Of a stretch of DNA of 64,000 bases, positions 12,534-61,737 are shown piece after piece. The notes under the pieces are model-generated. The model ran no database searches. It was not told the DNA's origin and worked only from the letters and a program-made list of their open reading frames with translations. The stretch is from Ligustrum vulgare (taxonomy: Eukaryota; Streptophyta; Magnoliopsida; Lamiales; Oleaceae): assembly GCA_963555705.1 (NCBI GenBank), contig OY743184.1, positions 28,846,639 to 28,910,638 on the forward strand, in the 5' to 3' direction. How positions within the stretch are numbered: the first letter of the stretch is position 1; every line of letters begins with the position of its first letter. A program made the position numbers and the translations under genes.

Positions 12534-13536
12534 TGACGCGATCCCAGTCGGGGAATCTCGTCGAACACGCGGGATAACGATAATTAAAACCCTAGGAAAG
12601 ATCTAGATCAGATCTGACACGAAAATAACAAGAATTAAAATACTGGAAAGATAAACTTGACGATAGGACCTTGACCCAAGATTCACGACGCAAGAAATTG
12701 ACGATGCGGAATCGAGATCCAAGGTTTTCGAAACACCACAAGGACTTGTCAATTTCCTTGATAAGATTCTAATCGGACACGCCACAAATATTCTCGCGAA
12801 TATTTGATAAGTACAACGCCACAAATATTTCCACAATATTTGATAGGTCGGATTTGTTCTCGAAGAACACAAAAGGGACTCCTCAACCTTTCAATTGGAG
12901 AAAACTCTCTCAACTATATTAATCTCAAAATCAATCTTAACTGTTTTTACAATGAATGTAAAGCGATATAAATAAGCAAAATAACCTAGCATCTAATTTA
13001 CTCAAAATAGAATTCTAATTATGCTAAAATTCTAAAATAGGAAAATAACCTAAAATAATAAAAGGAAATAAATTAATTGGCAAAATCCGGAAAATCTGGC
13101 GCTGCGTCTTTCACGGCCGTGACAAACTCTTTTACGGCCGTAAAGGCCTTTCTGATCAAAATTGTGATATTAGTTACGGCCGTGACACAATGTTTACGGC
13201 CGTGAATTTCCTCCGGTTTGAATGTTACGGCCGTAAGAATGGACATTACGGCCGTGAGACCCTTTCTGCTGAAATTCTGCCTTTTTCCTCGTTAATTGAT
13301 TACGGCCATGATTGTAAGATTTACGGCCGTGATTATATGATTTACGGCCGTGAAGGATTTCCATTACGGCCGTAATGCCTTTTCTGCATAAACAATTTCT
13401 TTTACTCGTTTCGGCTCGATCCGTCCTTCTTCTCGGCTCGCCCCCAACACGAAACTTACTCCGTTTTGCACGTAGATCACTATTATATTGCCGATGGCTC
13501 GACTTCGACCTTCGATGCCTTGTCCGGATCACATCA
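12534..13536 (-). mobile_element. Solo LTR of the 58048-61737 Ty3 family, TSD GAACA
   Basis: The 1003-bp insert begins TGACGCGATCC and ends GGATCACATCA, reading TG...CA. It is homologous along its length to both LTRs at 58048-59012 and 60736-61737, in the same orientation as them, so it is minus relative to that family's gag. GAACA occurs on both sides (12529-12533 and 13537-13541), and its removal restores the copia integrase frame. No internal sequence remains, as expected from LTR-LTR recombination. It carries nine exact ACGGCCGT palindromes between about 13110 and 13380. Confidence 0.95.
13105..13382. repeat. Array of ACGGCCGT palindromes in the solo LTR
   Basis: Nine exact copies and one variant (ACGGCCAT) are spaced 16-60 bp apart, usually as TTACGGCCGTGA or TTACGGCCGTAA. 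They are often arranged in pairs followed by a TTTCTG word. The spacers are not conserved as tandem units, so this is an array of short motifs rather than a satellite. Confidence 0.9.
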
Positions 13537-16045
13537 GAACATTAATTGAAATTGTTAATGCTATGTTAAACAACTCAGTCTTAGTAAAGGATATAGCAGA
13601 GAAGCTTTACTTACTGCATGTTATATCCTAAATCGAGTCCCGAGTAAAGGAAACAAATTTACACCATATGAATTATGGAAAAATTATAAATCTAACTTAT
13701 CATATCTACGTGTTTGGGGATGTAGGGCCATTTTTAAGTTGCCCGAAAAAAAGATTAAAAAGTTGGGAGAAAAATGAATAGAGTGCATATTTTTGGGATA
13801 TGCGCAACATAGAAAAGGTTATAGGTTTCTAGTAACTCGGTTGAAGTTTATACCATGATAGAATCTATAGATGCTATATTTTATGAAAACAGCTTCAAAA
13901 CTATTCCTAGATGTACTAATCTGGATTCTATTGAGCTAGAGGTAATCAAAGATAACAAGAAAAAGGTAGATGAAGAACTTCCAAAAATCAGAAGGAGTAA
14001 AGGCTTGAAAAGAGAAAACTTTTGGGCTCAACTTCATTATGCATCTAGTGGAAGGCACTAGAAATTCACAAATAAAGCAAATCTTAGTAACTCAAACTAT
14101 TGACTTGGATCCTCTCACTTATGAAGATGCTATGAAATCTAATGATTCGGCTTTTTGGAAAGAAGCTATAGAAGATAAAATATCATCTGTCATGAATAAC
14201 AAGACTTTGGAACTTGTAGATCTTCCTCCGGGTTGTAGACCTATTTGTTGCTAATGGATCTATGAAAGTAAATGGAACAATAAACAAATACAAAGCAAGA
14301 TTAGTGGCAAAAGGATTTACACAAAAAGAAGGCCTTGATTATTTTGATACCTATTCACTTGTTGCTAGGATTGCTATTATTAGAACCTTAATTACTTTAG
14401 CATCCAGATAAGTTTGAAATTCATCAAATGGATATTAAAATTGTGTTCCTAAATGGGGAATTGGATGAAGAAATATATATGGACTAATTGGAAGGTTTTG
14501 TCTTACAAGGATAAGAAAGAAAGGTGTGTAAATTAATTAAGTCATTATATATACTTAAACAAGCACTATGGATGACAAAATGGCTCGTTGGCTCAAGCCA
14601 CTCAGGTTTAGCTCAGCTCGTGGCTCGAGATTTCGAGTCAAAGCTCGAGCCGAGCTTTTTTTGAGAGACGGACATTGGCTGGACACGGATCGAGCAAAAA
14701 AAAACTCGGTCAAAAAACTCGATGGGAGCTTGAGCCATGAATTTTGACCATGAGCTTGGCTCAACTTGCTATATATATACATTTTCAATAAAAAAAATTT
14801 TGGATTTTTGTTATAAAAATAAAAAAAATTAAAAGCTCGGTACTTGGCTCGGAAAAACTTGAGCTTAAAACTCAAGTCGAGCCTTATTTTTGAGGACGAG
14901 CTTTGACTCGGATCGGCTCGGGCCAAAAAAAGCTCGAGCCTTGATCTTTGGCTCGCGAGCCGGCTCAGCTCGGCTCGTTGACATCCTTAACAAGCACCTA
15001 AGAAATGTTGTGAAAAATTTGATAAAATTATCGTTGCTAATGAATTTAAGATCCATGAATCATACAAATGTGTGTATAGTAAGTTTAATGGACACAAATG
15101 TGTAATTATTTGTCTATATGTGGATGACATGTTAAGATTTTGAATAGACTTAGAAGTGATCAAATCTACTAAGTCATTATTGTCATCCAACTTTGATATG
15201 AAAGGCATGGGACATGTATATGTGATTTTAGGAATTAAAATCATGAGAAAAGATACCGGGATCATACTTACTCAATGATATTATACAGAAAAGATGTTGA
15301 AAAGTTTGATCATTTTGATTGTAAGTCATTATCTACTCCATTTGATTCAAATGTTAGGATGTATCCTAACACTGATAGAGTAGTTTCTCAATTAGAATAT
15401 GCTCACATGATTGGATGTCTTATGTATGCAATGACATCTACAAAACCAGATATCACATTTGTTGTTGGTAAAATAAGTTGATATGCTAGTAATCCTAGTC
15501 AAATTCATTGGCAAGGAGTTAATAGAGTTTTAAAGTATCTTAAAGGTGTTAGAAGGATTTACTGATGCTAGTTAGATTACCGATCGAGAAGATCATGCAT
15601 CAACTAGAAGATGGATATTCACACTTGGTAGACCTGCTGTATTATGGGGTTCAAAGAAATGGGTTTCAAAGAAACAAACTTGTATATCATACTCCACCAT
15701 GGCTGCAGAATTATAGCATTAGCTTCACGTAGTAAAGAAACAGATTGACTAAGGAATTTATTGATTGAAATCCCTATTTGGCCTAAACCTGTACTTCTGG
15801 TATCTATTCATTATGATAGTGAGGCTAAGTTGTCTAAAGCATATATTCAAATTTATAATGAAAAATTTAGACATATTGGTTTAAGACATAGCTTGGTTAG
15901 ACAATTGATTTCAGGTGGATTCATTACCGTGGATTATGTGAAATTAAGTTAAAACTTAGCGGATCCTTTGACTAAATGCCTCGCAAGGGATTTAGTTTCA
16001 AAATCATTAAAGGGAATGAGATTGTGGCCAATTCAAAATCATCAA
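13537..16045 (+). pseudogene. Copia integrase C-terminus, reverse transcriptase and RNase H
   Basis: After the solo LTR the integrase tail continues (an EIVNAML block, then LRVWGCRA, KLGEK and CIFLGYA blocks). Reverse transcriptase begins near 14120 with a DAMKSNDSAFWKEAIEDKI segment. It continues to LKQAPKKCCEKF once the hAT insert at 14567-14989 is removed, then LYVDDM (about 15118). RNase H/tail blocks include WGSKKWVSKKQTCISYST (about 15650) and LADPLTKCLARD (about 15960). Many stops and at least three frame changes are present. Confidence 0.85.
14567..14989. mobile_element. 423-bp hAT-type non-autonomous element, TSD ACAAGCAC
   Basis: It begins TATGGATGACAAAATGGCTCG and its reverse complement begins TAAGGATGTCAACGAGC, giving a hAT-like terminal inverted repeat. 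A perfect 8-bp duplication, ACAAGCAC, lies at 14559-14566 and 14990-14997. Excision in silico rejoins the copia reverse transcriptase at the LKQAP motif. The interior is packed with GCTCG/CGAGC words, the kind of subterminal repeats hAT transposases bind. It has no coding capacity. Confidence 0.92.
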
Positions 16046-16584
16046 TAATGGAACCTCCACATAACACTTGAAACATCAAGCTCTTAGGTTCAATAAGTAA
16101 AGTACATTATATGAGTGATTGCTAACATTTAAATTAATCCCAAGATAAAAATGTTTGGAAATGTATCAATAAGATTAGGATGAGTTAAATGGCTCTTAAT
16201 AGACTTATATAGATGTCTATGAAATGCTTTAGATACATTGGCATTTTTGATATGTCTATCTATATGAATATCGAGGATGGTGTCGTCTCCAAAGTAGTTT
16301 CGTAAACTACTCAAGATATTCATGAAATCAAAACCAAGATATAGGACACATGGCATATTCATGTTTTGGTTTATTGAACACAATAAAGACTCTCAGATGT
16401 GTGTGTGAGGTATTTCCAGTTTGTCACATAGGGTCGCTAGCTCAAAGCTTGTCGACCACGCTACCTTATTTGACATTTGAAATACTTTCACTATGCTAAC
16501 GTTCAAGTCCTAAAGATACCTTCATTTATGCATAAGTTTGGAAAACTTACACAAGAGATTTTTCAAAACCTCATTCATTTTGAA

Positions 16585-16597
16585 AATGGTGGAGGAT
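16585..16597 (+). promoter_or_regulatory. Polypurine tract of the copia element
   Basis: AAATGGTGGAGGAT immediately precedes the TGTTGG start of the 3' LTR and is purine-rich as expected for the plus-strand primer. Confidence 0.6.
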
Positions 16598-21289: not shown

Positions 21290-22870
21290 TTTTCTAACTG
21301 TGACCTATTTTGGGGATAATGAGACATGCATATGTATTTTTGGTTTGTCTAAAACTGATATATTTGTGTGACCTGACTTCAACTATGTGTGACGTTTATT
21401 TTGTTTTTTCCCCCTAAATGTGACCAATTATGTATAGATGTGACTTTATCTTTTGGGTTCACAATTAGCATTATTTGTGGTAAAAGTGACATAAACAATG
21501 TTTGAAGCAAACAATCAATAATCTCACAGTATTACTTGCAGGAATGAGAATTTTTAATAAAACCAAGCAAGTGGTTTACTAGTAAAATCACAACCAGTTG
21601 CATAAAAAATGTGATCGTGAATTTCATGATGAAATTCACTGTTGAACAGTAATGGATGACTGAAGAGACTTGTTTCTCACACTTCCTACAGTGCAGAGAG
21701 ATTGTTGTGCAGCCTCAACTGTTACACTATGTACTTTTGCGTCAGGTAAAACAACGCAACAGGCAAGAGATGTGGTTCAAAATTCATGACAGATATATTC
21801 GATTTTCTATGACTGAATTTTGTCTTGTGACTGGTTTAAGATATGAGGGGGTTGATGAACGGGAGAGACTTGAGGATAAACCATCCGAGCTTAAGGAGAA
21901 ATATTTTGGTGATCTAAGAGTAGTAACTAGTGATGATATAGGAAATGTGTTCCTTGGGGATAAAGTGGATAATGAACACAATCTTGTTAGAATTGGGATT
22001 TTGTACCTGCTTTCGTGCTATTTGTTTTCTACCTCATACACTAAGGTGGTGGACCACTACATGTTTGTATTGGTAGAATATTTCGATTCGATGAAAGTGT
22101 TTTCTTGGGGGAAGATTCTATTTGATATCACCTTATCATCCTTGAAGAAAGGATTAGATAAGCAGATCTCACATTATAGATTGAATGGATTTCTCATTGC
22201 TTTTCAAGTGTGGTTGTACGAGTGCATACCGAGTATGGAGGGAAATGTTGCAACAAGAATTGCTAGGAATTATCCTAGGATTGTAAATTGGACAGCGCAC
22301 AAACATCCATCTGTCCCATTGTTGGATGGAAAAGTATTTAAGAATGAGGTAAAGATTAAAGCATGTTTTATGTGGAGGTAACAAATAATTATATTTGTTT
22401 TAACGTAATAAGGTTTACATTTGTATATATAACAGGTTGAGATAAATGATATTGAACCCTTCATTGCAGAGCTTGGTATGCCGTATATGTGAGGTTGAGA
22501 TTTATTTTTATGAGATTTATATACCTTGAAAAGAGTCTGTAACCTGATTGAAAAACTGTGACCAATATTTTATGTCTATATGTGACTATATAAGTATTTT
22601 TGCATAGTCATGCTAGTATGTGGTTTGTAATTGTAAATAAACTGTTACATGAATTCATGTTCTAGGACCAATAGTCATGTCTATTTATGACTTTCTATTG
22701 TATAAACTGTGACCTGAATATACGAAACTGGGACAAATGTTCATGGGTATTTGTGACTTTATATATTTATATTGTGACCAATATTATATATCTATCTGTG
22801 ACTATACAGACATTCTCAATATTCATCATAGTACATGTTTGGATTCTATAGATAAAATGTGACATGAATA
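21290..22870. repeat. TGTGAC motif cluster, left part of MULE
   Basis: About a dozen exact TGTGAC hexamers, commonly TGTGACC or TGTGACT, all on the + strand, occur in the two non-coding stretches on either side of the DUF1985 exon. None is seen in the exon itself. Confidence 0.8.
21560..22488 (+). pseudogene. DUF1985 exons of the MULE-borne Ulp1-type gene
   Basis: The long open stretch (ATG at 21656) encodes a DUF1985-like domain: CFSHFL near its start, LLHYVLLRQV, FSMTEFCLVTGLRYEG (about residues 50-65), HNLVRIGILYLLSCYLF, and VWLYECIPSM...RIARNYPRIVNW (about 185-215). This domain is plant-specific and characteristic of Ulp1-carrying KI-MULEs. The frame is open upstream too but crosses an in-frame TAA at 21650, so 21656 is not the native start. 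A donor (GAATGAG then GTAAAG, 22348/22349) and an acceptor (ATAACAG, 22434) lead to a short second exon (VEINDIEPFIAELG). The surrounding introns are full of TGTGAC words. The next exons lie beyond two retrotransposon insertions, at 40803. Confidence 0.85.
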
Positions 22871-25360: not shown

Positions 25361-25363
25361 TTG

Positions 25364-33235: not shown

Positions 33236-34671
33236 TGATGCGTGTCGTAATGCACCAAAATAATAATTAAATTCCTTGTTCACTATTACTAAGAATATAG
33301 CAGTGGAAGCAAGGTTCGATCCCACGAGGAACGGGAACTAATTTAATGCCATGTCAATTAGAATTATAAGGGGGGTTTTGAGTTGAAAATTGCAATTAAT
33401 CTAAATAATCAAATAAAGATGTAAAATAGCTGGAATAAAAATCAATTAATAAGAAATCCTAGTTCTCAGGTTCGGTTGTGCCCTATCATGATATTGTCAT
33501 TCCCCAAGCAACGCATGTACTATTTCCTTCGTTTTATTTATCACCCGGAATAATCAAAAAGCTCTGATTAATCCAATTCTTCCTTAATAATAATCAATTA
33601 GAATTAGTTCTCCAATCAATTTAGAGCGAATGAACAACCTAGAATAAGCTCCCTAGATTTAATTCATTAACTATGTGAAAACAAGAAGAATTAGGTGAAC
33701 TAAATTATCAATTACATATGCTCGAATTGATTAATCTAGATTGGATTTTCATATGGAAATATAAAATTACCAATTGCTACTATGATTTAGATAATAAGAC
33801 AAATACGAATCCAATTACCCAAATTAGCAAACATCAACACAATAATTAAAAGACAAGGCCTTAATCAATTAATAAATTGTCTTGACGAAATTAATGTTCA
33901 TGAGAAATCCAATAAATAAAATATAAAAACAAGAACTACGTTACGAGTTTGAGGAATGAATAATAAAATAATATGAACACAACTTCCCCCTTGAACTAGG
34001 TTGAGAAGACTAGCCACGCATTTCCATGAAGAATTCCCCAAAAATATTGTCTGGATTAACCTTGATTTTTGCCCGGAATTTCTTCTCTTCAAACTTTGAT
34101 ATTGGTGGCTCTCAAAAATAATTCCCTCTTCTCTTTGGTACTGAATTGCTCCTTTTATAGAGCTCAAATTCGTGCCCTAGCTTAGCCAAAAAGAAATACC
34201 AAAGATAGAGTTTAAGTTGAATTAGGAAACAATTTCCTTTTTTTTTTCGGGCTTAAGTTACGGCCGTAATATAAAGAGTTACGGCCGTAACTCACTTTCT
34301 GTTTATTTTCTACGCAATTGATTCACTTCTTACGGCCGTGACTTTGCATTCAATACGGCCGTAAGATCCTTGTTACGGCCGTGACTTGGTTTCTATACGG
34401 CCGTGACTTGGTTTCTGCAAATTTTCGTACTTTTGTTTAAACAGCTTCTTACGGCCGTGACTTTCATGGTTGCGGCCGTAAATTATTTACATGCCAGGTC
34501 CTCGAACTTCCTTTTTACGTGCTTTTTAGTCCTTTTTCCTTCTTTTCTTGTCATTTGCGATCCTACACAATATAAAACATAAAATGCATTAAGCAATACT
34601 TAATTAGGATCAAACTAACAGTAATTCGAGGCAACAAGTAAATAAATAAAGTGTTAGTAAAGCACTTATCA
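33236..34671 (-). repeat. 3' LTR of the gag-only Athila element
   Basis: In + orientation it reads TGATGCGTGTCG to AAGCACTTATCA, so on the minus strand it starts TGATAAGTGC like the Athila LTRs at 862 and 9203. It has seven exact ACGGCCGT copies at 34258-34480 plus one GCGGCCGT. Confidence 0.95.
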
Positions 34672-34684: not shown

Positions 34685-36831
34685 TTGAACCATTGTTCGT
34701 CCTCGAATAATGATAGAAAAGAACTAAAGCATGACTCGAATGAACATGTTAGACTTTTAAATCTGGAAAGTCAAGGTCACAACCCACTTCTTTTTAGCAC
34801 GAAAATCAAATTGCATAATCGGAGTGTGTTAGTGTGTGTAAGAGATGCATCACCCAATATTCTCCGAACAAAAATGAAAATTGATACCCCAATGTGGATT
34901 ATATCCTTTCACCTCTCGTGAGTTCTCTCTGAATTTATCAATTCCCCATAAAAATGTAAGTTTTGACTAATTCAAGTAAATGCCAACAGATTAGTGCGGT
35001 TTATCTCATGGTAAAAATTTTAGTCAATACACAGTTTCAGATCAAAAGGGCACAAAATATAGACCAAGCAATTCAAACCACTCATAAGTACATGTAATGG
35101 GAGCCAACACTCTCACCAGATATCTCTCTTCGCACAAAGTGTATATAAAGGTGAGAATTTACGCTCAACTCACTGCATGAAAAACTTGTTACCACAGATT
35201 GCTCAAGTGTAAAAACCGGAGCCAACAATAACACAAGTGCAAAGCAAAGGTCTTTGTTAGGTTGTAGCGGGGCTTCGGGTCAGGTGGGATAAAAGGGAAA
35301 CATTTAGGCTGAATCGAGAAGGAGTTTCACAAGCCGAATCGGTTCAATTATAACTTCCCTTCTTTCTTCTTCAACATGAATTAATAATCTCCCTGCTATC
35401 CAACTGATTTAACACTAGACTTCCATTTGTGCAGCTTGAGTGTTTATTTTCAATACTAGCAAATGTTCATGACCTCGTAATTTGAGAACTGGTCTGAACT
35501 TCTCTTTTTCTTTTTTTTTTTTTTTCAACATATACTGCAATTTTTTTTTCTCTTTTGGTCAAATCACCCCCACAATCCCCAATGACACAAGATCGAATTT
35601 CCACTTTGAAACTTAATCCACCTCAAACTTCTCAACCAACACAAGCTTGTGAATCCGTTCTCTATAGGTTCAAGAAAAAGGATAACATGAAAGAATGGGT
35701 GTTCGTGGCTTGTAGTGTGGTATTAATATTCCAAAGAAAGGCTAAGGCTCAAAGGGTCTTCTATTGGTAAATGTACAAAGGTAGGCTTATTTAGAAGGCC
35801 AAATTTGGTTCATCCTAGTGCCTTTACTATATTTTGCACTCGAGCCAAGAAGCTACTACGGCATGTACACAAAAGCATATCCAAGAACAAATCAACCATG
35901 CAGGACACACATTAAAAGAAAAATAAGAGCTTTATAATAAGAGTAAAAGTAGCTCATAGGCTCAAAAGCTCACAAATTATGGTTCATATGTGTGTCTCCC
36001 ATCCAATTATGAGTTTTGGTCATTGCTCGGTCTTAGGGTCGAATTGAAAAACGCAAAAAATCTAGTGGCCAAAGGGGTGAATCTCTTTACTCGGGGTAAT
36101 TATTAGTCAATCAAATTTGGGTTTGAATCTACTAGGTTGCAGAGATATGGCATTTTGTCCCCATTTTCAAACCTATTCGGAAAGTATTGGAAAATTCATC
36201 TCTACGTGCTCAATTCATGTCCAATTATGCAATTATATTTCAAAAAAAATGAACCAAAAGTGGGGTCGCTTCCTATCAAAGATTAAAATGGATGCTGACT
36301 CAAACTGAATTTTAACGTTTCGACTACAGAAAGTAGATAAAGACATTAAGCTCAAAATCAATTCAATCCCCCCCACACGTAAACAAAACAATGTCCTCAT
36401 TGAAAAATAAAGCTAAATAATAAAAGGGATGTTATGCACGAGGGGACCGTTTTAAAATTTTGAAAAAGGGTAGACTTGCGGCCGTGAAGGTATGACTTAC
36501 GGTCGTAAGTCACAGTCTGAAAAAAATTTCCAAGAAACAATTACGGCCGTGAAAATGTAATTACGGCCGTAATAAGGCCTCTGTATAAAAACTGGGATTG
36601 AGTTACGGCCGTAAAAATGTTAACTTACGGCCGTAACAAGGCTACTGAATTTTTTTATTTTTTTATTTATTTATTTTTTTTTTATTTTTGAAATGACTAA
36701 ATAAACTAAAATTAACCAAAAAGTAAAATACGAAAATAAAAAGTTGAGGAGATAAAGAAACTCCCCTCTCGGGTTGCCTCCCGAGCAGCGCCTTTGTTTA
36801 CTGTCGTTGGCTCGACTTGTTGTTTCCTCCT
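34685..36831 (-). other. Non-coding interior of the gag-only Athila element
   Basis: About 2.1 kb where pol would be expected. No reverse transcriptase, RNase H or integrase motif is readable in any frame. T-rich tracts occur at 35505-35545 and 36650-36690. At 36478-36640 there are four exact ACGGCCGT motifs plus two variants. The sequence is not obviously a decayed pol; it looks like a different, non-coding interior. Confidence 0.7.
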
Positions 36832-39204
36832 TCAACCGGGATTAGGTGGATTCCCAAAACTCAATTTTTTCTTCATGCTCTTCATTAAGATCTGCAAAAT
36901 AGGGGGTAGAGGTTTTTCATCAGAAATTGGTAATGAGATGGATGAGATTTTACCTGATTTCGGAGACTTTGGACAGTCCTTTCCACCAATATCGAGAACT
37001 TCCTGTACTAAAGAGTCATTAACATTAACAGAATAAACAGGATCATCACCAAAATTCTTCACAGAATCATAAATATTGAATTGAACAATTTTATTATCAA
37101 ATTCCATGGAAAGTGTGCCACTACTAACATCTATCTTAGTTTTAGATGTTTTCAAAATTGGTCTACCTAACAAAATAGGAGTGGAGTTGGGGGAGTGGTC
37201 ATCATTCATGTCCAATACATAAAAATCTGCAGGAAATACTAACCCGCCTACTTGCACTAGAATGTCTTCAACTACCCCGTCAGGATAAGTATTAGAACGA
37301 TCGGCTAGTTGAATTATAACATTAGTCTCAGTCATATTAGCAAGTTTTAATGCATTGTATGTAGACCTAGGCATTACATTTATAGATGCACCTAAATCTA
37401 TTAATGCACGATCCAGTTTAGTGTCACCTATTTGGCATGGTATAGTGAACATACCTGGATCCTTGCATTTTGGGGGCAGTTTCCTTTGGAAGAGTGCTGA
37501 CACATTTTCCCCCATTCTTACCATTTCATTTCCCATCAACTTCCGTTTGTTGGTGCACAGCTCCTTTAAGAACTTCGCGTATCGGGGCACTTGCTTGATT
37601 GCATCCAACAGTGGAATGTTGATTTCCACTTTCCTGAACAATTCCAGAATTTCCTTCTCCTTGCTTTCCTTAGTCGCCTTCGCTAACCTGCTCGGAAAAG
37701 GCGGTGGAGTTAGTTTCGCATTCACAATAGGTTCGGTTTTTACCTGAGAGTTTTGTGGAATGCTGTTTTTCTTTTCGACTTCTTTTTCTTCAACCTCCTC
37801 CTCTTCACTCGCGGTTGGCTTTGATTGTGGTGCCTCAATTTCTTTTCCACTTCGAAGAGTAATTGCACTTACATTCTTCGGATTCACCTCGGGTTGAGAT
37901 GGCAATTTTCCTCCTGTTTGTGCTTCCAGTCTGTTGATAGCTGTGGCCATTTGACTCATTTGATTTTCCAGGTTTTGAATGCTGGATTTGGTATCCTGTT
38001 GAAATTGTAGAGTGTTAGTGGCCAAAGTTTTCATCATTTCTTCGAGAGACATACCTGATGATTGTGGCTTTTGCTGATATTGTCCCTGTGGATGGAAATT
38101 TCCTTGTTGTTGAAAATTCCCTTGAGGCTTGTTGGAGACGAAACCCGAAGGTTTGTTATTCCCATAGCTCAAGTTCGGGTGGTCCCTCCAGCTAGGATTG
38201 TAGGTATTGGAGTACGGGTTGTATTGCTGTTTTTGAAATGGAAACCCTTCTGCAGCCTTTACCTGTTCGCTGTTTTCCTCTTGGAGCACTGGGCACGCAT
38301 CCGTTGCATGTCCGAAGTTAGCACATATCCCGCATGCTTTGACTTGTTGTGCACTTCCTACAGTAAGTTTTTTAACGAGATTTGTTAGTTCAAACAGTTG
38401 ACTTTCTATATTGGAACTACTTACCTCGTTCACGCGGCGAACTTGCATGTCTCGGGTTGGGTTAAATTGCTGAGTGTTTTCAGCCATGTTGGAAATCAAA
38501 GCCTGAGCCTGTTCTGGTGTTTTGTCCATTAAGGCACCTCCACTTGCGGCATCTATCATACTTCTATCCATTGGTAGCAGTCCTTCGTAGAAATATTGCA
38601 CTAGTAGTTGTTCGCTGATTTGATGATGGGGGCAGCTCGAGATGAGCTTCTTGAAGCGCTCCCAATATTCATACAGCGATTCACCATTGTTTTGACGAAC
38701 CCCGCAAATTTCCTTCCGGATTGTTCCAGCCCGAGAAGCAGGAAAATATTTTTCCAAAAATAGCCTCTTCATGTCATTCCAGGTGGTGACTGATCCGGAT
38801 GGTAAACAGTATAGCCAATCAGTAGCGGCATCCTTTAACGAGAATGGAAAGGCCCTCATTTTAATTTGTTCCTCGGTAATACCAGTGGGTCTCATACTGT
38901 CACAAACCACGTGGAATTCCTTGAGATGCCTGTAAGGGTCTTCACCAGCATGTCCTCGAAAAGTTGGCAACAAGTGAATGAGTCCAGATTTGAGTTCAAA
39001 AGTTTTTCCCCCCTCCACTGTCGGAAAAGTGATACAGAGTGGCTGTTGAGCGACATCTGGGGTGGCCAATTGTTTAAGTGTCCTGTTGTTGAGGTTATTT
39101 GCTGCCATTTGTTCTAGTGCTTCCCTTCTTCGCTGTTGAAAAGTTCGCTCGATTTCTGGATCAAATAAAAGATATTCAGGATTAGTGGATCGAGTTTTAT
39201 GCAT
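36832..39204 (-). CDS. Athila-group gag-protease polyprotein, intact ORF
   Basis: The 790-residue ORF starts 160 bp inside the 5' LTR, at the ATG closest to the PBS that opens the whole frame. Residues about 42-250 form the Athila gag core (LATPD, CITFPTVE, FELKSGLIHLLPTF, AFPFSLKDAATDWLYCLPSGSVTTW, YFYEGLLP, MIDAASGGALMDKTP). A CCHC knuckle lies at C291-C294-H299-C304. A Gln/Asn-rich linker (about 320-400) and an acidic coiled-coil-prone stretch (about 465-480) follow. The aspartic protease core is IDLGASINVMP with the catalytic Asp at 603, and ILLGRPIL is near 678. DLGA is usual for Athila proteases. Its products would form virus-like particles and process gag, but no pol is encoded. The absence of stops over 2.4 kb contrasts with every other element gene in the window. 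Confidence 0.95.
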   Translation of the reverse strand: MHKTRSTNPEYLLFDPEIERTFQQRRREALEQMAANNLNNRTLKQLATPDVAQQPLCITFPTVEGGKTFELKSGLIHLLPTFRGHAGEDPYRHLKEFHVVCDSMRPTGITEEQIKMRAFPFSLKDAATDWLYCLPSGSVTTWNDMKRLFLEKYFPASRAGTIRKEICGVRQNNGESLYEYWERFKKLISSCPHHQISEQLLVQYFYEGLLPMDRSMIDAASGGALMDKTPEQAQALISNMAENTQQFNPTRDMQVRRVNEVSSSNIESQLFELTNLVKKLTVGSAQQVKACGICANFGHATDACPVLQEENSEQVKAAEGFPFQKQQYNPYSNTYNPSWRDHPNLSYGNNKPSGFVSNKPQGNFQQQGNFHPQGQYQQKPQSSGMSLEEMMKTLATNTLQFQQDTKSSIQNLENQMSQMATAINRLEAQTGGKLPSQPEVNPKNVSAITLRSGKEIEAPQSKPTASEEEEVEEKEVEKKNSIPQNSQVKTEPIVNAKLTPPPFPSRLAKATKESKEKEILELFRKVEINIPLLDAIKQVPRYAKFLKELCTNKRKLMGNEMVRMGENVSALFQRKLPPKCKDPGMFTIPCQIGDTKLDRALIDLGASINVMPRSTYNALKLANMTETNVIIQLADRSNTYPDGVVEDILVQVGGLVFPADFYVLDMNDDHSPNSTPILLGRPILKTSKTKIDVSSGTLSMEFDNKIVQFNIYDSVKNFGDDPVYSVNVNDSLVQEVLDIGGKDCPKSPKSGKISSISLPISDEKPLPPILQILMKSMKKKLSFGNPPNPG

Positions 39205-39342
39205 ATAAATAAATGAATAATTAAATAAAATTGTCGGAATTTCAAATTTTTTTTTTTTTTTATTAAACCGAAAACAAAAATAAATAAATAAAAATGCAGA
39301 AAATAAAATTCTAATTGATTAAACAGAAAATTGGTTAACCGT

Positions 39343-39360
39343 TCCCCGGCAACGGCGCCA
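39343..39360 (-). promoter_or_regulatory. Primer binding site, tRNA-Asp type
   Basis: On the minus strand TGGCGCCGTTGCCGGGGA, 6 bases inside the 5' LTR, is the hallmark primer site of Athila/Tat-group elements. Confidence 0.95.
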
Positions 39361-39366: not shown

Positions 39367-40802
39367 TGATGCGTGTCGTAATGCACCAAAATAATAATTA
39401 AATTCCTTGTTCACTATTACTAAGAATATAGCAGTGGAAGCAAGGGTCGATCCCACGAGGAACGGGAACTAATTTAATGCCATGTCAATTAGAATTATAA
39501 GGGGGGTTTTGAGTTGAAAATTGCAATTAGTCTAAATAATCAAATAAAGATGTAAAATAGCTGGAATAAAAATCAATTAATAAGAAATCCTAGTTCTCAG
39601 GTTCGGTTGTGCCCTATCATGATATTGTCATTCCCCAAGCAACGCATGTACTATTTCCTTCGTTTTATTTATCACCCGGAATAATCAAAAAGCTCTGATT
39701 AATCCAATTCTTCCTTAATAATAATCAATTAGAATTAGTTCTCCAATCAATTTAGAGCGAATGAACAACCTAGAATAAGCTCCCTAGATTTAATTCATTA
39801 ACTATGTGAAAACAAGAAGAATTAGGTGAACTAAATTATCAATTACATATGCTCGAATTGATTAATCTAGATTGGATTTTCATATGGAAATATAAAATTA
39901 CCAATTGCTACTATGATTTAGATAATAAGACAAATACGAATCCAATTACCCAAATTAGCAAACATCAACACAATAATTAAAAGACAAGGCCTTAATCAAT
40001 TAATAAATTGTCTTGACGAAATTAATGTTCATGAGAAATCCAATAAATAAAATATAAAAACAAGAACTACGTTACGAGTTTGAGGAATGAATAATAAAAT
40101 AATATGAACACAACTTTCCCCTTGAACTAGGTTGAGAAGACTAGCCACGCATTGCCATGAAGAATTCCCCAAAAATATTGTCTGGATTAACCTTGATTTT
40201 TGCCCGGAATTTCTTCTCTTCAAACTTTGATATTGGTGGCTCTCAAAAATAACTCTCTCTTCTCTTTGGTACTGAATTGCTCCTTTTATAGAGCTCAAAT
40301 TCGTGCCCTAGCTTAGCCAAAAAGAAATACCAAAGATAGAGTTTAAGTTGAATTAGGAAACAATTTCCTTTTTTTTTTCGGGCTTAAGTTACGACCGTAA
40401 TATAAAGAGTTACGGCCGTAACTCACTTTCTGTTTATTTTCTACGCAATTGATTCACTTCTTACGGCCGTGACTTTGCATTCAATACGGCCGTAAGATCC
40501 TTGTTACGGCCGTGACTTGGTTTCTATACGGCCGTGACTTGGTTTCTGCAAATTTTCATACTTTTGTTTAATCAGCTTCTTACGGCTGTGACTTTCATGG
40601 TTGCGGCCGTAAATTATTTACATGCCAGGTCCTCGAACTTCCTTTTTACGTGCTTTTTAGTCCTTTTTCCTTCTTTTCTTGTCATTTGCGATCCTACACA
40701 ATATAAAACATAAAATGCATTAAGCAATACTTAATTAGGATCAAACTAACAGTAATTCGAGGCAACAAGTAAATAAATAAAGTGTTAGTAAAGCACTTAT
40801 CA
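39367..40802 (-). repeat. 5' LTR of the gag-only Athila element
   Basis: It has the same length as the LTR at 33236-34671. The differences I can see include C/T changes within two of the ACGGCCGT motifs (ACGACCGT near 40392, ACGGCTGT near 40584). Confidence 0.95.
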
Positions 40803-47104: not shown

Positions 47105-47105
<1 letters not shown>

Positions 47106-47157: not shown

Positions 47158-47160
<3 letters not shown>

Positions 47161-49217: not shown

Positions 49218-49264
49218 TAAGAGTTTTAAAAGCGATTCTGTAAACTTTTAAAATTTATTTGAAA

Positions 49265-52200
49265 ATGGTTCGGGTACTGAGTCACGCCTCAAGTGCATCT
49301 TCCTCGATCATCTGGTAAGTTAAATTTTTGTTCAAGTTAGTAAATGCGTGGTAATGTTTCCAGTATTGTAAATCTTTGAATGTTAATATGTAATGTTGTA
49401 AAGTTAAAGGTTAAGGATGTTGTTAATGAATATGGCGTGTATATCTTGATTATGTAAATGAGAAAATGAGATGGTAATGATTACTATACAATTGGGTAAT
49501 GTTCACAAATTCCTTATGTGAAAGATATGAAGTGAATGCGAATAGTGCTTTGAGTCATGGAGACTACATCGGCACGAATGTATATTTTATCCAAGTCGGA
49601 AGTTTAGAAGTCATCGAACTTAGTATTAAGCACTTATCATGCTCGATCTCGGGACTACCCACTCATTTGATAGTCCCATAATCATAGGAAAATTGATTTA
49701 CCCATCTCGGTAACTGGAGATCGTGTTTTGCTTGCCAACACATTTTGGAGAACTTTTGAACTCAAGATATGCGTTGAACGATTTCCCAATCGTGGTAAAT
49801 GGGAAGGAGTAGATGATAGATCTCATAACACCGGATATCCACGATCTTGATGTCAAACTAAGAATGGAATTGTTATTACGATATAATGCTTCAATCGTCA
49901 GTCACAATAAGGTGGTGTTTGAACCTCCAAACAAAACCCCGTTTCATTTGTTGGGGTTGAGGTGAAGCTTTCTATTTCGATAGTGTAGGTGATCAACGCT
50001 CGTCAGTTGGTGAATACAAGTTGTAAGGCCTAATTAGCTACAGTAATTGAGCTGATTAAGATAGGCCCTTATCTTTTGAACAAACTTCAATTGTTCGAGA
50101 ATGTCTAAATATGTTACCAAACGATCTTTATGATCTACCACCTAAAGAGAGATTGAATTCGTCATTGATTAAGTGCCTAGGGCAGCTCTAATATCCAAGG
50201 CACAGTATTGGATGGCTCTTGCTGAACTTAAAGAGCTCAAAGAGCAGGTATAGGATTCTTCTGGACAAGGGTTTTATTCGAACTAGCTTTTCGCTACTGA
50301 TTGCTCTTGTGTTATATACGTAAAGAAGAGAGATGGTTCTATAAGACTTTGCATAGAAAACAGAGAATTGAACAAGTGACAATAAAAATAGATATGCATT
50401 GCTAAGAATTGAGGATATGTTGATCAGCTTCAAGGTTTGGGGTATTTTTCTTAGATCGAGTTGCAATCTGTTTTCCATCATTTGAGGATCAAAGAAAAGG
50501 ACCTTCCAAAGACAGCTTTCCATATTGGATAAGGACATTATGAGTTCTTAGTGGTGTTGTTCAGGTTAACAAATACCCTTGCAGCATTAATGGACTTAAT
50601 GCATTGGGTCTTTAAAGAATATTTTGACCAAGTTGTTATAGTTTTCATTGATGACATATTGATCTATTCGAGGTCTGAGAATAAACAAGACATTTGAGGA
50701 TCGTGCTTTAGAAACTTAGAGAAGAGAAATTTTTACTAAGTTTAAGAAGTGTGAGTTCTGGCTGGATAGGGTGTCATTCTTGGGGCATGTTGTATCAAGG
50801 GAAGGTATTAATGTTGATCAGAGTAAGATTGAGGAAGTTTGGCGATGCCATATAATGTTCAAGAAGTTCGTAGTTTTCTCGGATTAGCTGGTTACTACCA
50901 GAGATTTGTCGAGGAATTTTCCAAGATTGCCTCATCGTTGACTAAGTTGACTAGAAATGATACAAAATTTAAGTGGAGTTCGGATTGTGAAACACAGTTG
51001 ACAACTGTGCCCATTTTAACTATTCCACAAGGAAATGAATGGTTGTTCATATACATTGATGTGTCATTAAAAGGGCTCGGTTGTGTTCTTATGCAATATG
51101 ATAAGGTGATGGCCTACACTTCTAGGAAACTGAAGGAGTAAAGAATTGTAAAATTTAAGATTTATTGAAATTGAGAGATTGGTATAAATAAGATTTTAGT
51201 GATTTATTGATGTAGAAATGTTCAGGTGATATTTATGATGGTTATTATACTATGATCTTAAGGAGATTGATATGATTAAATGTTGAGGTCATTTGGTATG
51301 GTGATAAGTGACATTTCACATGATTACCACAAGTTATGGTGAATAGATAGTTAATGAATGTTATGATTGTCCTATGGAAGAATAGTGTGATGATATGTTT
51401 GAACTAATTTATCTTATCTTGATAAATGGTTTGTTTATTGATAAATATGACCTATGGTCGGGAAATTTCATTTGTTTATGACAAGATAGATGAATTTATT
51501 TAAAATTTTGGTGATGTAGTTGTGGATACTCATTGTTGGTTGTGCATTAGATGTGAGTAGAGCATATTATCCATTTTGAGATCTCCATGGAATATACATA
51601 AATTTGGGTTGTTTAAAATCTAAGATGATCATTAGTGTGACTTTTACTTATTGTGGAGTTGTATCTTTGGGTTAAGTAAACTTGAGGACGAATCCTATAT
51701 GAATGAATCGCAAAAGTCTTATTCATTGGTGATAGGTCAATGATTTATTTATAAAATACTTGGTTAGAGTATTGTTGAAATATGGCATACATTGAGGTTT
51801 TGGAAAAAAAAATTGAGAATGTCATATTGATCTTATAATGATTTTGAAAGCATGGATTCTTAAATTAGTACCTTAGCTTTAGTTTTAAGATGAGTGTATG
51901 ATGCTGAATACTTGATTACAATATATAAGTATGGGTTACAGGATTTAAGTTTCACCCTCCGAATTTAAAAGAAATGTTAGCATGTTTAGAAAGGATTTCG
52001 TTCGTAAATCTTTCCAGAAAGATTCTGTAAAAGTATTAGTATTTCTACTGTATATTTTGGTATGGACGTCAAGTTTCACTAATTCTGGATTATAAAGTCT
52101 TATTTTGGTCAATATTCTTGATTTTAGTTTTAAGAATGCGATCAATCAATATATATATTAAGGTTTAGACGTTAGAATAGATCCTAGGAAAGGCTGGAAA

Positions 52201-52900
52201 TAGAAAGTTAGTGGATGGATTCATAAGTGGGATAATGTCGGTTGATGGTCTCCTACAACAATAACTATCAAACTTCGGTCACGTATGAGGTACTATACAG
52301 GAAGAAGTGTAGATCACCAGTTCATTGAGATGAGATAGGAGAAAGAAAATTATTGGGTCCAGAAATAGTACAACAAAAAGCAGAAGTTGTTGAAAAGATT
52401 CGTCAGCAGATGAAAACTGTACAGAGTAGACAAAAAAAAAGCTATGCGGACAAAAGAAGGAAATCTTTGGAATTCGCCGCAGGCGATATGATATTTTTGA
52501 AGGTAGCTCCAATAAAATGAATTATGAGGTTCGGGAAGAAAAGAAGGTTGAGCCTTTTGTTGGCCCCTTGAGAGGCTAGAAATGATGAGCGACCTAATTT
52601 ATCTGATTGCATTGCTACCAAAACCATCTGGGATACAAAAGGTGTTTTACGTCTTATTGTCAAGGAAGTATTATCCAGACTCATGTTATATTCTCAGCTA
52701 TGAGTAATTAGATCTTCGTGAGAAATTGATATATGAATAGTCACATGCGAGAACCTTAGAAAAGGTTAATAAGGCACTTAGGAGAAAGAAGGTAACATTA
52801 GTTAAAGCCCTTTGGAGGAATCATGCAGTAGAAGAGGCTACTTGGGAACGCGAAGATGAAATGCATGCCAAGTATCCACACCTTTTTGGTAAGTTTTAAT
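49265..52900 (+). pseudogene. Decayed gag-pol of the second Tekay element
   Basis: The first codons after an ATG at 49265 look like a gag start, but gag is otherwise missing. Protease-region remnants may lie at 49540-49680. Reverse transcriptase remnants start near 50220 (VKKRDGSIRLCI, then [12 protein letters not shown] at about 50645), followed by FLGHVV and, after frame changes, [22 protein letters not shown] (about 50860). RNase H gives [22 protein letters not shown] (about 51075). Between about 51140 and 52240 I read no convincing motif. The integrase tail returns at 52290 (KLLGPE, SYADKRRKSLEF). The chromodomain-like end VTLVKALWRNHAVEEATWE lies at about 52795-52850. Confidence 0.85.
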
Positions 52901-52922
52901 TTCGAGGACGAAATTTCTTTTT

Positions 52923-52936
52923 AGGGGGTAAGGAAT
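52923..52936 (+). promoter_or_regulatory. Polypurine tract of the second Tekay element
   Basis: AGGGGGTAAGGAAT directly precedes the TGTAAGACC start of the 3' LTR. Confidence 0.8.
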
Positions 52937-54100
52937 TGTAAGACCACTTTTCAGTTTTCGTGTAATTTTAAATTTCACGTAATAATTAGTTTAATGTTAT
53001 TATAAATTTTAAATTTATTGATATTTTTAATGTCGGTAATTTGAATTATTTTGCAGTGGAAGGACTTGGATGCCGTCTCGACCAATGTGCCAATTATAAA
53101 AAAAAAAAAAATTAAATTTTTTACGTGGAATTCTATGTCTATTTGTTTATTTTAATTGTTGAACTTGCCAATTTCTATTTTTATTAAATTGTAAGTTACC
53201 AAATTTGCATGAATGTGAAATTGGAGAAAGTTTAGTGTACATGGAGAGTAAATATAAGTTATGGACTTACTGTGCACATGGAGAGAAATGAGGGACCAAA
53301 TTGAAAATTACCAAAAGTTTATATCAAAACCTAAACTAATCCCACCCAGAACCGTTCCTATCTCTCTCAACCCTCATTTTCGCCATCTCTCACCCGACTC
53401 CATCTCTCTGACTCGACTCTCCTCTCTTCTCGCCTCCATCACTCTCGTCTCTCTCGCCTCCATCACTCTCGACCAATCATAGCTCCGCCACCACCACACC
53501 GCCGGTAACCACCACAGTAAGGCACCCTTCCTGCCTTCTTTCTTCCCCTTTCTCTTCACCGACGCACCACACACACACCCACACAGTCACGCACACTGCA
53601 CACAAACGCACACACACACACGTAATTGGTGTATGTATATATGGAACTGTATGTATTTGTTGATGTATATTTGTGTTGAGTGTATGTAAATGTGTGTTGG
53701 TTCTCATATTTTCATATTCAAGTTCACTTGATTTCAAATTATACCGTTAATTGGGGATTTAGTAATGCTTATATATGTGTTTATTGATGTATATATGTAT
53801 ATATAGCTGGGTATCTTCTACAGTAGATTTTCAGATTCTGACTTAGTATAATTTAAAATTTTTTAATGTTATTATAAAATTTTAATTTTTTGATATTTTT
53901 AATGTCGATAATTTGAATTATTTTGCAATGGAAGGACTTGGATGCCGTCTCGACCAATGTGTCAATTATAAAAAAAAATTAAATTGTTTTGTTTACGCAT
54001 GTAAGTGAAGAAAATAAGTGTTTGAAATGTTTTATTTCCGCATTTAAAGTGAAAGGAAGTTAACACGCCTAAGTTAAAGATTTTAAACTTGGGGTGTTAC
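52937..54100 (+). repeat. Rearranged 3' LTR of the second Tekay element
   Basis: Positions 52937 to about 53860 match the first 0.9 kb of the 5' LTR. Then about 53862-53988 is a second copy of LTR positions about 60-190, and about 53985-54100 matches the LTR end. Roughly 2.2 kb is missing, including the 50-bp array. The second junction falls at TTGTTTACG, a word present in both parental sites. Confidence 0.88.
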
Positions 54101-55281
54101 GAAATAACAGGTCACATTTAGTTTAAAACACCTTTACACACAACGTGAAAAGATTCTTTCATGTTTTCATGTCACAGTTACACATAAAATTAAGGTCACA
54201 CACGAAACATATTGTCACATTTAGTTCAGAATAAGTCACAGCTTCTAGACAATTTGATCACCATGTTTTATTTGTGATTCTATACACTCCAATGCACGTG
54301 TAATTTCATGAAATCATATTTAGCACAACAAACAAATGCATACAGCTACCATCCTGTTTTCATGTCGCTGACACAGAAAAATGACACGAAACACAAGACA
54401 TCCGGTCACAGTTAGTTCAAAATAAGTCACAGCTACTTCACAAATTAGTCACAGTGTTTTCTTAAGATTCTATACATTCCAATGCTTTCATGGAATCATA
54501 TTTAGTACAACTAAGGAATGTGTAGAGCTACCATACTGTTTTCATGTCACAATTTATAGATAAAAATTACATGAAAACACAAAAAAATTTGGTCACATTT
54601 AGTTCAAAACAAGTCACAGTTAGTTGACAAATTTGATCACAGTGTTTATTGTGATTCTATACATTCAAATGCACATGTTATTCATGAAATCATATTTAGT
54701 GCAATGAAATCAAACACGTCGAGGCAATTTTTATTTATGTGGTATTGGTATTTACGCAACAACTTTCTAATTAAATATGAAACACCTCGTAAATCTAGAT
54801 TTCACATTTCGAGTTTTGAAGAAAACTTCATCTGGAAAACAGAATGGTAGCCAATATGCTTACCTTCAGAATCAATTCAAAGAACCGTAGCTTCTGATTC
54901 AAGGACCTATAGCTTCATAATCAATTTAACGAACAGTAGCTTCCGATTTACCCAATAAACGATGATGGTGTTTCATCGAATATGAGAGTAATGCTACCTC
55001 AATTGTTGATTATTGCCTAGAATCTTTAATTTCGGGAAGAAACAATCGATTATGTAGCTTCAATTGATTTTAGGGAGATATTATAGGGATGGGCATGGAG
55101 AGTTCTTCTTTTGTTGGTAAGTTTATTTTATTAACGAGATTGTCTGTTTATTAATAGCTAATATATTTTCTATATTATTAATTACATTAATTGTATTTAC
55201 CACCTGATTTTTAGAAAAATTACTTAAGTTTGTTAATTTTAAAAAGTGATAGTTTTACCTTTGTAGTTATGTATTGTTCCC
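54101..55281. other. MULE right terminal region
   Basis: Non-coding. At 54105-54690 about a dozen GTCACA words occur on the + strand (GGTCACATTTAG, AAGTCACAG) within imperfect repeats of roughly 240 bp (GATTCTATACA...CATTTAG). From 54750 to 55100 there is sequence that would lie upstream of mudrA, with CTTCNGATTC repeats near 54865-54950. No transposase N-terminus is readable. It ends with the terminal repeat at 55281. Confidence 0.65.
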
Positions 55282-58047: not shown

Positions 58048-59012
58048 TGACGCGATCCCGGTACGGGAATCTCGTCGAACAACGCGGAATAACGAAATCT
58101 AAAACCTAGGAAAGATCTAAATCAGATCTGACACGAAAATAATAAGAATTAAAATACTGGAAAGATAAAATTGACGATAGGACCTTGACCCAAGATTCAC
58201 GACGCAATTAATTGACGATGCGGAATCGAGATCCAAGGTTTTCGAAACACCACAAGGACTTGTCAATTTCCTTGATAAGATTCTAATTGGACACGCCACA
58301 AATATTTTCACAATATTTGATAAGTCGGATTTGTTCTTGAAGAACACAAAAGGGACTCCTCAACCTTTTAATTGGAGAAAACTCTCTCAACTCAAATTCA
58401 ATATTCAAAACTAAACTTAACTGTTTTTACAATGAATGTAAAGCGATATAAATAAGCAAAATAACCTAGCATCTAATTTACTCAAAATAGACTTCTAATT
58501 AAACTAAAATACTAAACTAGGAAAATAACCAAAAACTAAAAAAGGAATAAAATAATTAAAAATCCGGAAAATCTGGCGCAGCTTGTTTACGGCCGTGACG
58601 AAACCTCTTACGGCCGTAAAGGTCTTTCTGATTAAAATTGTGATATTAGTTACGGCCGTGACGAATTTCTTACGGCCGTGAAGTTTCCCTTTTCTGAATG
58701 TTACGGCCGTAACTTCCAAGCTTACGGCCGTAAGCGTCGTTCTGCAGAATTTCTTCCTTTTTCTTCGACAATTGATTACGGCCGTGATAACATGATTTAC
58801 GGCCGTGAATATATGCGTTACGGCGGTGAAGGTCTTCTTTACGGCCGTAATTGGAATTTCTGCCCAAATTACTTCGACCCCTTGATTCGGCTTGATCCGT
58901 CCCCCTTCTCGGCTCGACCTCAACATGGAACTTACTCCGTTTTGTACGTAGATCACTATCATATTGCCGATGGCTCGACTTCGCCCTTCGATGCCTTTTC
59001 CGGATCACATCA
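58048..59012 (-). repeat. 3' LTR of the short gag-protease element
   Basis: In + orientation it runs TGACGCGATCC to GGATCACATCA. It has nine exact ACGGCCGT motifs at 58586-58850 plus one ACGGCGGT. It carries one copy of a 37-bp CGCCACAAATATT unit where the partner LTR and the solo LTR have two. Confidence 0.95.
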
Positions 59013-60467: not shown

Positions 60468-60721
60468 GGAAATTTGGAATATGGAAAAAAAATGGAATTT
60501 TTCGATTTTTTGTTTTTAATCTGCCAGAGAATTAAACTACGAGTATGGCTGAAAAAACGGAACTGAATTTGGACGAAAAACGAAGAAGAAAAATACTTTT
60601 GAATTTTTGGGACTGACTCTTATGGATCAAACTGGAAAAATATATGACTGACACGAAGAACGCGAAGAACACGAAAAAAATCAAGAAAATCAAGAAACGC
60701 AAGAATCTGAAATAGATCCAA

Positions 60722-60733
60722 GCTCTGATACAA
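60722..60733 (-). promoter_or_regulatory. Primer binding site, tRNA-iMet type
   Basis: On the minus strand TTGTATCAGAGC, two bases inside the 5' LTR, differs by one base from TGGTATCAGAGC. Confidence 0.85.
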
Positions 60734-60735
60734 GA

Positions 60736-61737
60736 TGACGCGATCCCGGTCGGGGAATCTCGTCGAACAAAGCGGAATAACGAAATCTAAAACCTAGGAA
60801 AGATCTAAATCAGATCTGACACGAAAATAACAAGAATTAAAATACTGGAAAGATAAAATTGACGATAGGACCTTGACCCAAGATTCACGACACAATTAAT
60901 TGACGATGCGGAATCGAGATCCAAAGTTTTCGAAACACCACAAGGACTTGTCAATTTCCTTGATAAGATTCTAATTGGACACGCCACAAATATTCTCGCT
61001 AATATTTAATAAGTACAACGCCACAAATATTTTCACAATATTTGATAAGTCGGATTTGTTCTTGAAGAAAACAAAAGGGACTCCTCAACCTTTTAATTGG
61101 AGAAAACTCTCTCAACTCAAATTCAATATTCAAAACTAAACTTAACTGTTTTTACAATGAATGTAAAGCGATATAAATAAGCAAAATAACCTAGCATCTA
61201 ATTTACTCAAAATAGACTTCTAATTAAACTAAAATACTAAACTAGGAAAATAATCAAAAACTAAAAAAGGAATAAAATAATTAAAAATTCGGAAAATCTG
61301 GCGCAGCTTGTTTACGGCCGTGACGAAACCTCTTACGGCCGTAAAGGTCTTTCTGATTAAAATTGTGATATTAGTTACGGCCGTGACGAATTTCTTACGG
61401 CCGTGAAGTTTTCCTTTTTTGAATGTTACGGTCGTAACTTCCAAGCTTACGGACGTAAGCGTCGTTCTGCAGAATTTCTTCCTTTTTCTTCGACAATTGA
61501 TTACGGCCATGATAACATGATTTACGGCCGTGAATATATGTGTTACGGCCGTGAAGGTCTTCTTTACGGCCGTAATTGGAATTTCTGCCCAAATTACTTC
61601 GACCCCTTGATTCGGCTTGATTCGTCCCCCTTCTCGGCTCGACCTCAACATGGAACTTACTCCGTTTTGTACGTAGATCACTATCATATTGTCGATGGCT
61701 CGACTTCGCCTTTCGATGCCTTGTCCGGATCACATCA
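60736..61737 (-). repeat. 5' LTR of the short gag-protease element
   Basis: Partner of 58048-59012. It has seven exact ACGGCCGT motifs and three variants (ACGGTCGT, ACGGACGT, ACGGCCAT) at 61312-61580. Confidence 0.95.

Follow-up and report, generated by a model that had tools for sequence, protein, structure and literature searches.

What leads unrelated retrotransposons to carry the same short DNA word, repeated at the same strict intervals? This question is raised by a 64-kb stretch of the Ligustrum vulgare genome (contig OY743184.1; hereafter the window), in which the first-pass annotation had described arrays of a 12-bp near-palindrome, ACGGCCGT, in all five long terminal repeats (LTRs) of two families: family A, an Athila-type element, and family B, a short Ty3 element. 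The arrays were fully recovered. The window contains 41 exact copies of the word, compared to a mean of 0.05 in shuffled sequences, and none of 100 shuffles reached 41. All exact copies fall into six arrays, five in the LTRs and one inside the Athila-type element, and the window scan revealed no site with up to two mismatches beyond them. With one mismatch allowed, 10 sites were found in each of the three family B LTRs, 8 in each of the two family A LTRs and 6 in the internal array. The latter lies in the 3′ non-coding interior of family A and recurs in two other copies of this family (L026 and L032). The word is oriented: the sense strand of the carrier elements, all of which occupy the minus strand of the window, reads TYACGGCCGTAA, and the exact one-sided copies share one direction.

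The abundance of the word was determined in the assembly of the host, which comprises 51 contigs and 1.385 Gb. The query TTACGGCCGTRA gave 108,586 forward and 106,865 reverse matches (215,451 in all), compared to 21 forward and 16 reverse matches (37 in all) for a reversed control word. The number of distinct exact sites is estimated at ∼142,000, based on the 85 fully palindromic sites among 163 sampled exact ones, in a sample chosen around arrays. Carriers were identified from 100 listed places, i.e. plus-strand matches located between 53 kb and 956 kb of one contig (C1), a listing that would miss arrays built solely of the other one-sided form. The 22 fetched stretches (L011–L032) cover all 100 places, which form 31 clusters. 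Each of the 31 was assigned by similarity to family A, its subfamily D, family B or a further family, C. The 28 arrays with at least two sites in L011–L030 (26 in the list) were assigned by single-linkage clustering with the motifs masked, one single-site cluster via its LTR pair, and the clusters of L031–L032 via BLAST to earlier LTRs; many clusters have only one LTR within the stretch and were thus placed by resemblance, not by LTR pair. Equal abundance of the word in unrelated DNA, named earlier as a refuting observation, does not apply, given the control count and the confinement of all sampled clusters to carrier lineages.

Family C is an autonomous Ty3 element encoding gag and protease-reverse transcriptase (RT)-RNase H-integrase. 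It has the same LTR start and primer-binding site as family B, and the protease regions of the two are 55% identical along 222 residues. The carriers thus represent two Ty3 lineages, A/D (Athila-type, with D as a subfamily) and B/C (the short element and the related autonomous family), with 2–10 copies of the word per LTR. The initial count of two carrier families was too narrow, and the sixth, internal array had not been reported.

Outside the motif, the LTRs of the two lineages are as dissimilar as had been noted for those in the window. Comparison of 18 stretches with the motifs masked uncovered no meaningful similarity: the only match between A/D and B/C at E ≤ 1e-3 was a 44-bp inverse one, between the internal array of family A and a family B LTR. 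Flanking homology of the kind that recombination between the two LTRs would require was not found in these comparisons. Similarly, no significant match was obtained between the family A gag-protease and the family C pol (best E 0.87). Family A has LTRs of the TG..CA type, a 5-bp target-site duplication (TSD) and gag homologs, found in flowering plants in the best 120 of 1981 matches, and has no RT by which to place its lineage. Its primer-binding site, TGGCGCCGTTGCCGGGGA, is presumably of the tRNA-Asp type, and this site, the LTR ends and the TSD are the grounds on which the family is provisionally labelled Athila-type; the site of family B, TATCAGAGCTTGG, carries TATCAGAGC and is presumably of the tRNA-iMet type. 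Given the differing primer sites of the lineages and the lack of a significant match between their proteins, the proposal that the arrays are a shared helper signal is unsupported.

Both window families had also been described as gag-protease-only. This is true of family A, whose open reading frame (ORF) contains Retrotrans_gag and Asp_protease_2. In the 377-aa ORF of family B no Pfam capsid domain was matched, and the zinc knuckle is weak (20.3 bits, slightly below the Pfam cut-off of 20.8). Non-autonomous LTR elements of the TR-GAG type keep gag in the absence of RT and integrase. The window carriers resemble them in being LTR elements without RT and integrase, with gag and protease kept in family A. 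Family B differs in having a zinc knuckle and a protease and no capsid, and the TR-GAG type tells nothing about the motif.

The spacing of the sites follows the turns of the DNA helix. The distance within pairs is mostly 20–23 bp, and longer gaps group at 28–32, 42–45 and 51–54 bp, near whole DNA turns. All 124 gaps in 20 sampled loci measure 20–23, 28–32, 43–45, 51–54, 64 or 73–76 bp. Phasing was evaluated on 19 arrays with 103 gaps, a set in which each element is represented by one LTR and from which several near-identical layouts, as well as L031 and L032, are absent. The mean of the 60 short gaps is 20.95 bp (sd 0.72), and the 43 long gaps leave 24–27, 33–41 and 46–50 bp unoccupied. Phasing as strong as this was obtained in 0 of 20,000 random draws, and in 2 of 20,000 after the data had been collapsed to 24 family-value combinations.

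The sites are further organized into a composite module that is common to both lineages: CAGAA at position −11, then a TT-type and a TC-type motif, ∼21 bp apart. Within pairs, T occupies position 2 of the first motif in 53 of 64 cases and C occupies position 2 of the second in 40 of 64. Of the 74 pair-opening or single motifs, 28 are preceded by a CAGAA that begins exactly 11 bp upstream, compared to five occurrences at all other offsets together. By family, these are 8/13 in A, 14/34 in B, 2/11 in C and 4/10 in D. The TTTCTG reported to follow motif pairs is therefore real, and corresponds to this CAGAA read in the sense direction. A G at position 11 that would compensate for C at position 2 was found in only 1 of 62 sites with that C (145 sites in total). 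It should be noted that these analyses used hand-made array lists, comprising 25 arrays for gap layouts, 21 for site and spacer conservation, 24 for divergence between insertions and 24 for module counts. The gap-layout and site-conservation counts read the internal array of L026 and the arrays of subfamily D on the strand opposite to that of the module counts, for which the strand was set by homology to A; this affects the site-conservation counts at positions 2 and 11.

Each position of the word is kept in 119 to 135 of 135 sites, and the DNA between the sites is not. Forty 9-bp spacers have a pairwise identity of 0.29, compared to 0.27 expected, and 0.28 between families. With spacers this close to random, the unit-to-unit similarity expected of a tandem repeat or satellite is absent. 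Between insertions, motif divergence is below that of spacers and flanks in 37 of the 41 printed pairs (19 of 55 family B pairs, those with spacer divergence under 0.45, plus every pair of C (6), A (6) and D (10)). Between the two family B elements of the window, motif divergence is 3.3%, compared to 29% for spacers and flanks. The layouts have also persisted. In 3 of 30 B–C array pairs, six consecutive gaps are equal within 2 bp, with a motif identity of at least 90% and a spacer identity of 0.31–0.42; shuffling the gap order in one of the three pairs gave a six-gap run in 168 of 20,000 trials. Runs of at least four equal gaps were found in 10 of the 30 pairs, with a spacer identity of 0.31–0.57 (the better of two end alignments).

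A different picture emerged from changes that postdate insertion. In the LTR pairs of nine putative single insertions, taken together, 23 of 708 motif columns differ, compared to 125 of 6956 columns in the rest (Fisher p 0.014). All 23 differences lie inside the CGGCCG core and 18 are C/T or G/A. Since motif columns diverge faster after insertion, the conservation of the word is not due to low mutability. On these comparisons, the motif is thus rather hypermutable in silent elements, and selection among active lineages must account for its preservation. Among the 135 sites, the word is most often altered at position 7 (C to T, 14 sites); positions 4 (C to T) and 6 (G to A) come next, with 7 sites each. 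Positions 6 and 7 correspond to the outer C of CCG, that is, a CHG and not a CG context.

The arrays occupy a defined place relative to the promoter. A TATA-like box lies 85–136 bp downstream of the array in 15 of 19 arrays, at a distance that is nearly constant within each family: 85–98 bp in A (4 arrays), 121–136 bp in B (8) and 97–98 bp in C (3). The distance from the LTR-start match to the array start is 150–162 bp in B, 189–211 bp in A and 241–242 bp in C. It amounts to 667 bp in L016, and L020 and L024 have no LTR-start match. Thus, in A, B and C the site cluster is located in U3, upstream of the core promoter, as expected of an ONSEN-like LTR promoter driven by a transcription factor. 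Judged by layout, this is the position of an upstream activating sequence.

We consider it fairly probable that the arrays act at the DNA level, as binding platforms on which a dimeric factor assembles cooperatively and either activates the U3 promoter or relieves its silencing. A sequence-specific protein would recognize TYACGGCCGTAA and, because the site is a near-palindrome, would probably be a dimer. Adjacent sites ∼2, 3, 4 or 5 helical turns apart would place the bound dimers on one face of the DNA and in mutual contact, with CAGAA serving many pairs as a second recognition element roughly one turn further upstream. Protein bound to the array would, given the TATA-like box ∼85–136 bp downstream, most likely raise transcription of the genomic RNA of the element, and copies with a good array would leave more offspring. 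Dead copies would lose the motif, mainly through C/T and G/A changes, as expected of methylated cytosines. As the scanned carrier ORFs showed no spare DNA-binding domain (25 ORFs from the carriers and their neighbourhoods were scanned with Pfam, and none was identified in a carrier), the factor would probably be supplied in trans, most likely as a host transcription factor; the stability of the word would be best fitted by a host factor. The first-pass annotation had offered a host factor site and a methylation-related element as alternatives. The former gains partial support, because phased, constrained spacing, here combined with a shared word and pair layout, is indicative of a protein-binding site. 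The latter is possible in an anti-silencing sense only.

Several observations weigh against this model. The figure of 0 in 20,000 counts related arrays as independent, and the best period is 10.8 bp for the pooled gaps and 11.15 bp for the long gaps alone, compared to an exact 10.5 bp. Two gaps in L032, of 19 and 24 bp, are off by a few bases (they sum to 43). CAGAA is found at −11 in none of the six cases in internal arrays. The sites were picked at no more than two mismatches, and this inflates their invariance. Four of the 41 printed pairs are contrary, with motifs more diverged in A1–A3, B3–B4 and B8–B9 and equally diverged in C3–C4, and three of the nine LTR pairs have no motif excess (L025 and L022 lower, L020 equal). 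With the patterns used, a TATA match within 450 bp was found for none of the four subfamily D arrays. The internal array of family A, being located outside the LTR, is compatible with an enhancer model but not predicted by it. No transcription factor motif was matched to the word, and NAC, LBD and bZIP half-sites, considered as candidates, were set aside. Finally, 5 of the 25 scanned ORFs matched no Pfam family at all.

The VANC proteins of Arabidopsis VANDAL transposons, which contain a DUF1985 domain, bind short words in non-coding tandem arrays, and the VANC6 words occur in the unrelated element AT9TSD1 as well (PMC5735166). By analogy, the arrays could be where a DUF1985-type protein, encoded by a transposon, acts to remove methylation, with the word evolved or hijacked by the LTR elements. 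We regard this as unlikely, even though the window contains a DUF1985 ORF (21653–22378) and a Mutator-like region with clusters of GTCACA, most commonly spaced by 21 bp, and family A has a non-coding internal array. The neighbourhood of the DUF1985 ORF carries GTCACA, not ACGGCCGT, and this ORF was set aside as the binder for that reason. It is the only DUF1985 match among the 25 scanned ORFs (five matched nothing) and lies outside the carriers. All 31 clusters in the 100 listed places were assigned to LTR elements and none to a Mutator-like element (MULE), in a sample that a low-copy MULE would escape. Moreover, VANC-target regions diverge rapidly, according to PMC10398659, yet the word is identical in two Ty3 lineages. 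The likeness to VANC/VANDAL arrays (PMC5735166 and PMC10398659) consists in a short word present many times in non-coding parts of a transposon and found in an unrelated element too. VANDALs are Mutator-like DNA transposons that encode the binder, with the words YAGTATTAY and AGTTGTCC/AGTTGTAC and growth by tandem repeats. In contrast, the carriers described here are LTR elements with no DUF1985 in the scanned ORFs, one stable 12-bp word, near-random spacers, helical spacing and a TATA-proximal position.

Two further explanations concern the palindromes and repeats as such. U3 arrays are present at the 3′ end of the RNA, and the layout of the pairs would allow 12-bp stems with ∼9-nt loops, so the palindromes might form hairpins or dimerize genomic RNAs for packaging or transport. 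Only 1 of the 62 informative sites has a compensating change, which disfavours an RNA-level palindrome. The sites are also oriented, and the phasing extends to long gaps, for which hairpins need no fixed length. The hairpin or kissing-loop reading was set aside for want of compensation and seems very improbable to us. At least as improbable is an origin of the arrays as a functionless by-product of slippage of a ∼65-bp unit, a reading set aside because of the near-random 9-bp spacers between intact motifs. The layout 21,44,21 does repeat in some arrays, family A shows local duplication, and Tandem Repeats Finder reports 21–22-bp arrays over parts of five LTR arrays, these weak calls being due to the motif itself. 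However, the B and C layouts were kept after their spacers had diverged, and motifs that overall mutate faster after insertion would be the first to be lost in the absence of selection.

A last alternative concerns the origin of the arrays and leaves their function as in the binding-platform model, with which it is compatible: the module may have moved between lineages by template switching. We see this as a possibility, with a chance somewhat below even. It would explain the composite module being present in both lineages. Against it stand the masked comparison of A/D with B/C, in which the 44-bp inverse match was the sole hit at E ≤ 1e-3 among the 18 stretches, and the spacer identity of 0.28 between families. 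Judging from the sequences, the convergent gain favoured initially could equally be an old transfer of the module whose spacers have since been randomized. Recurrent gain has a precedent in Brassicaceae COPIA elements including ONSEN, where heat-responsive elements arose in the LTRs of several families and drive transcription (PMC5059998). The sites there are clusters of heat-shock nGAAn; common to both systems are clustered transcription factor sites in the LTRs of several families, binding being a prediction in our case, where Ty3 LTRs carry 2–10 copies of a 12-bp word in pairs spaced by helical turns.

Under the binding-platform model, we put forward more tentatively that unrelated lineages have adopted a common code, namely oriented and helix-phased arrays that one trans-acting factor would read at an estimated ∼140,000 exact sites, and so share one expression or anti-silencing network. 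The factor may be a host regulator or the anti-silencing protein of another transposon; the scanned carriers appear not to encode it. Arrays of regulatory sites in transposons are already known, and what is unusual here is the helical strictness, the scale and the sharing between lineages. A literature search for the word and for palindromes in LTRs, which left most subscription papers outside its reach, brought up nothing relevant among the papers listed and did not find the word in a transposon. The arrays offer a clean example from nature of selection on transposon regulatory sequence that is legible letter by letter, the word and its helical spacing being kept and the spacers lost. Two questions come within reach of testing: do unrelated elements converge on a single factor of host or transposon origin, or do they take it over, and can several families have escape from silencing in common? 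So many sites in a single genome (more than 10^5) could have strong effects on how much of the factor is available and on the host targets of that factor.

The features of the carrier elements in the window are compiled in Table 1. A protein search with an ORF that crosses the family B array yielded 35 candidates, none at E ≤ 0.001. A scan of IMG/VR with the paired word gave no matches; the paired pattern also matched two bacterial stretches (L001 and L002).

Table 1. Motif arrays and carrier elements of families A and B in the window (gaps in bp)
Feature	Position	Strand	Remarks
Family A 3′ LTR	33236..34671	-	begins TGATAAG, finishes CATCA; TSD CACGG on both sides of the element; self-BLAST 99.3% vs 39367-40802
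Motif array, U3 of family A 3′ LTR	34258..34481	-	8 sites; sense gaps 21,54,22,20,23,51,21
Sixth (internal) array, between family A gag-protease stop and 3′ LTR	36476..36636	-	6 sites; gaps 22,42,20,44,21
Family A gag-protease ORF	36835..39207	-	Retrotrans_gag and Asp_protease_2; no RT
Family A primer-binding site	39343..39360	-	TGGCGCCGTTGCCGGGGA
Family A 5′ LTR	39367..40802	-	self-BLAST
TATA box of family A 5′ LTR	40281..40290	-	TATAAAAGGA; 98 bp downstream of array
Motif array, U3 of family A 5′ LTR	40389..40612	-	8 sites
Family B solo LTR	12534..13536	-	TSD TGTTC on either side; BLAST end 12526, true end 12534
Motif array, family B solo LTR	13111..13375	-	10 sites
Family B 3′ LTR	58048..59012	-	TSD AAATG on both sides of the element
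Motif array, family B 3′ LTR	58587..58850	-	10 sites; gaps 21,21,21,54,21,31,20,42,21
Family B ORF, 377 aa	59385..60515	-	zinc knuckle and aspartic protease; no capsid domain, no RT
Family B primer-binding site	60718..60730	-	TATCAGAGCTTGG
Family B 5′ LTR	60736..61737	-	end read at CGCGTCA; BLAST end 60728
TATA-like box of family B 5′ LTR	61170..61179	-	TATTTATATC; 132 bp downstream of array
Motif array, family B 5′ LTR	61312..61575	-	10 sites

Family A contains a second polypurine-tract-like sequence, GTGTGGGGGGG, at 36368–36378 (minus strand), ∼1.7 kb before the true one (34665–34684) and ∼100 bp downstream, in the sense direction, of the internal array.

Two other families with LTR pairs are present in the window, at 22880–33137 and 45994–53861, both without the motif. 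The former, a Ty3 element, has LTRs of 2.49 kb (95.8% identical), contains fragments of gag, RT and integrase, and carries no ACGGCCGT array. The latter has LTRs of ∼0.93 kb (96% identical) and a degraded RT/RNase H, is free of ACGGCCGT, and is located inside the Mutator-like region.

The GTCACA clusters extend over 41085–45420 and 54111–54613 (both strands) and 21299–22858 (minus strand), with 52 copies on the plus and 32 on the minus strand of the window. Gaps of 21 bp are the most frequent, and those of 10 or 20–22 bp account for 16 of 33 close gaps on the plus and 3 of 12 on the minus strand, counted without a shuffle control. The clusters surround a Mutator-like transposase fragment (45448–45741, minus strand, PF10551) and an ORF with a SWIM finger (44452–44805, minus strand), and also flank the DUF1985 ORF. 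This region may be a VANDAL/VANC-type element with a word of its own and, given the DUF1985 ORF and the GTCACA clusters, VANC-type systems may exist in this genome with another word. A tandem repeat with a 50-bp unit, present in 7.1 copies with 90% matches, was found at 48154–48506.

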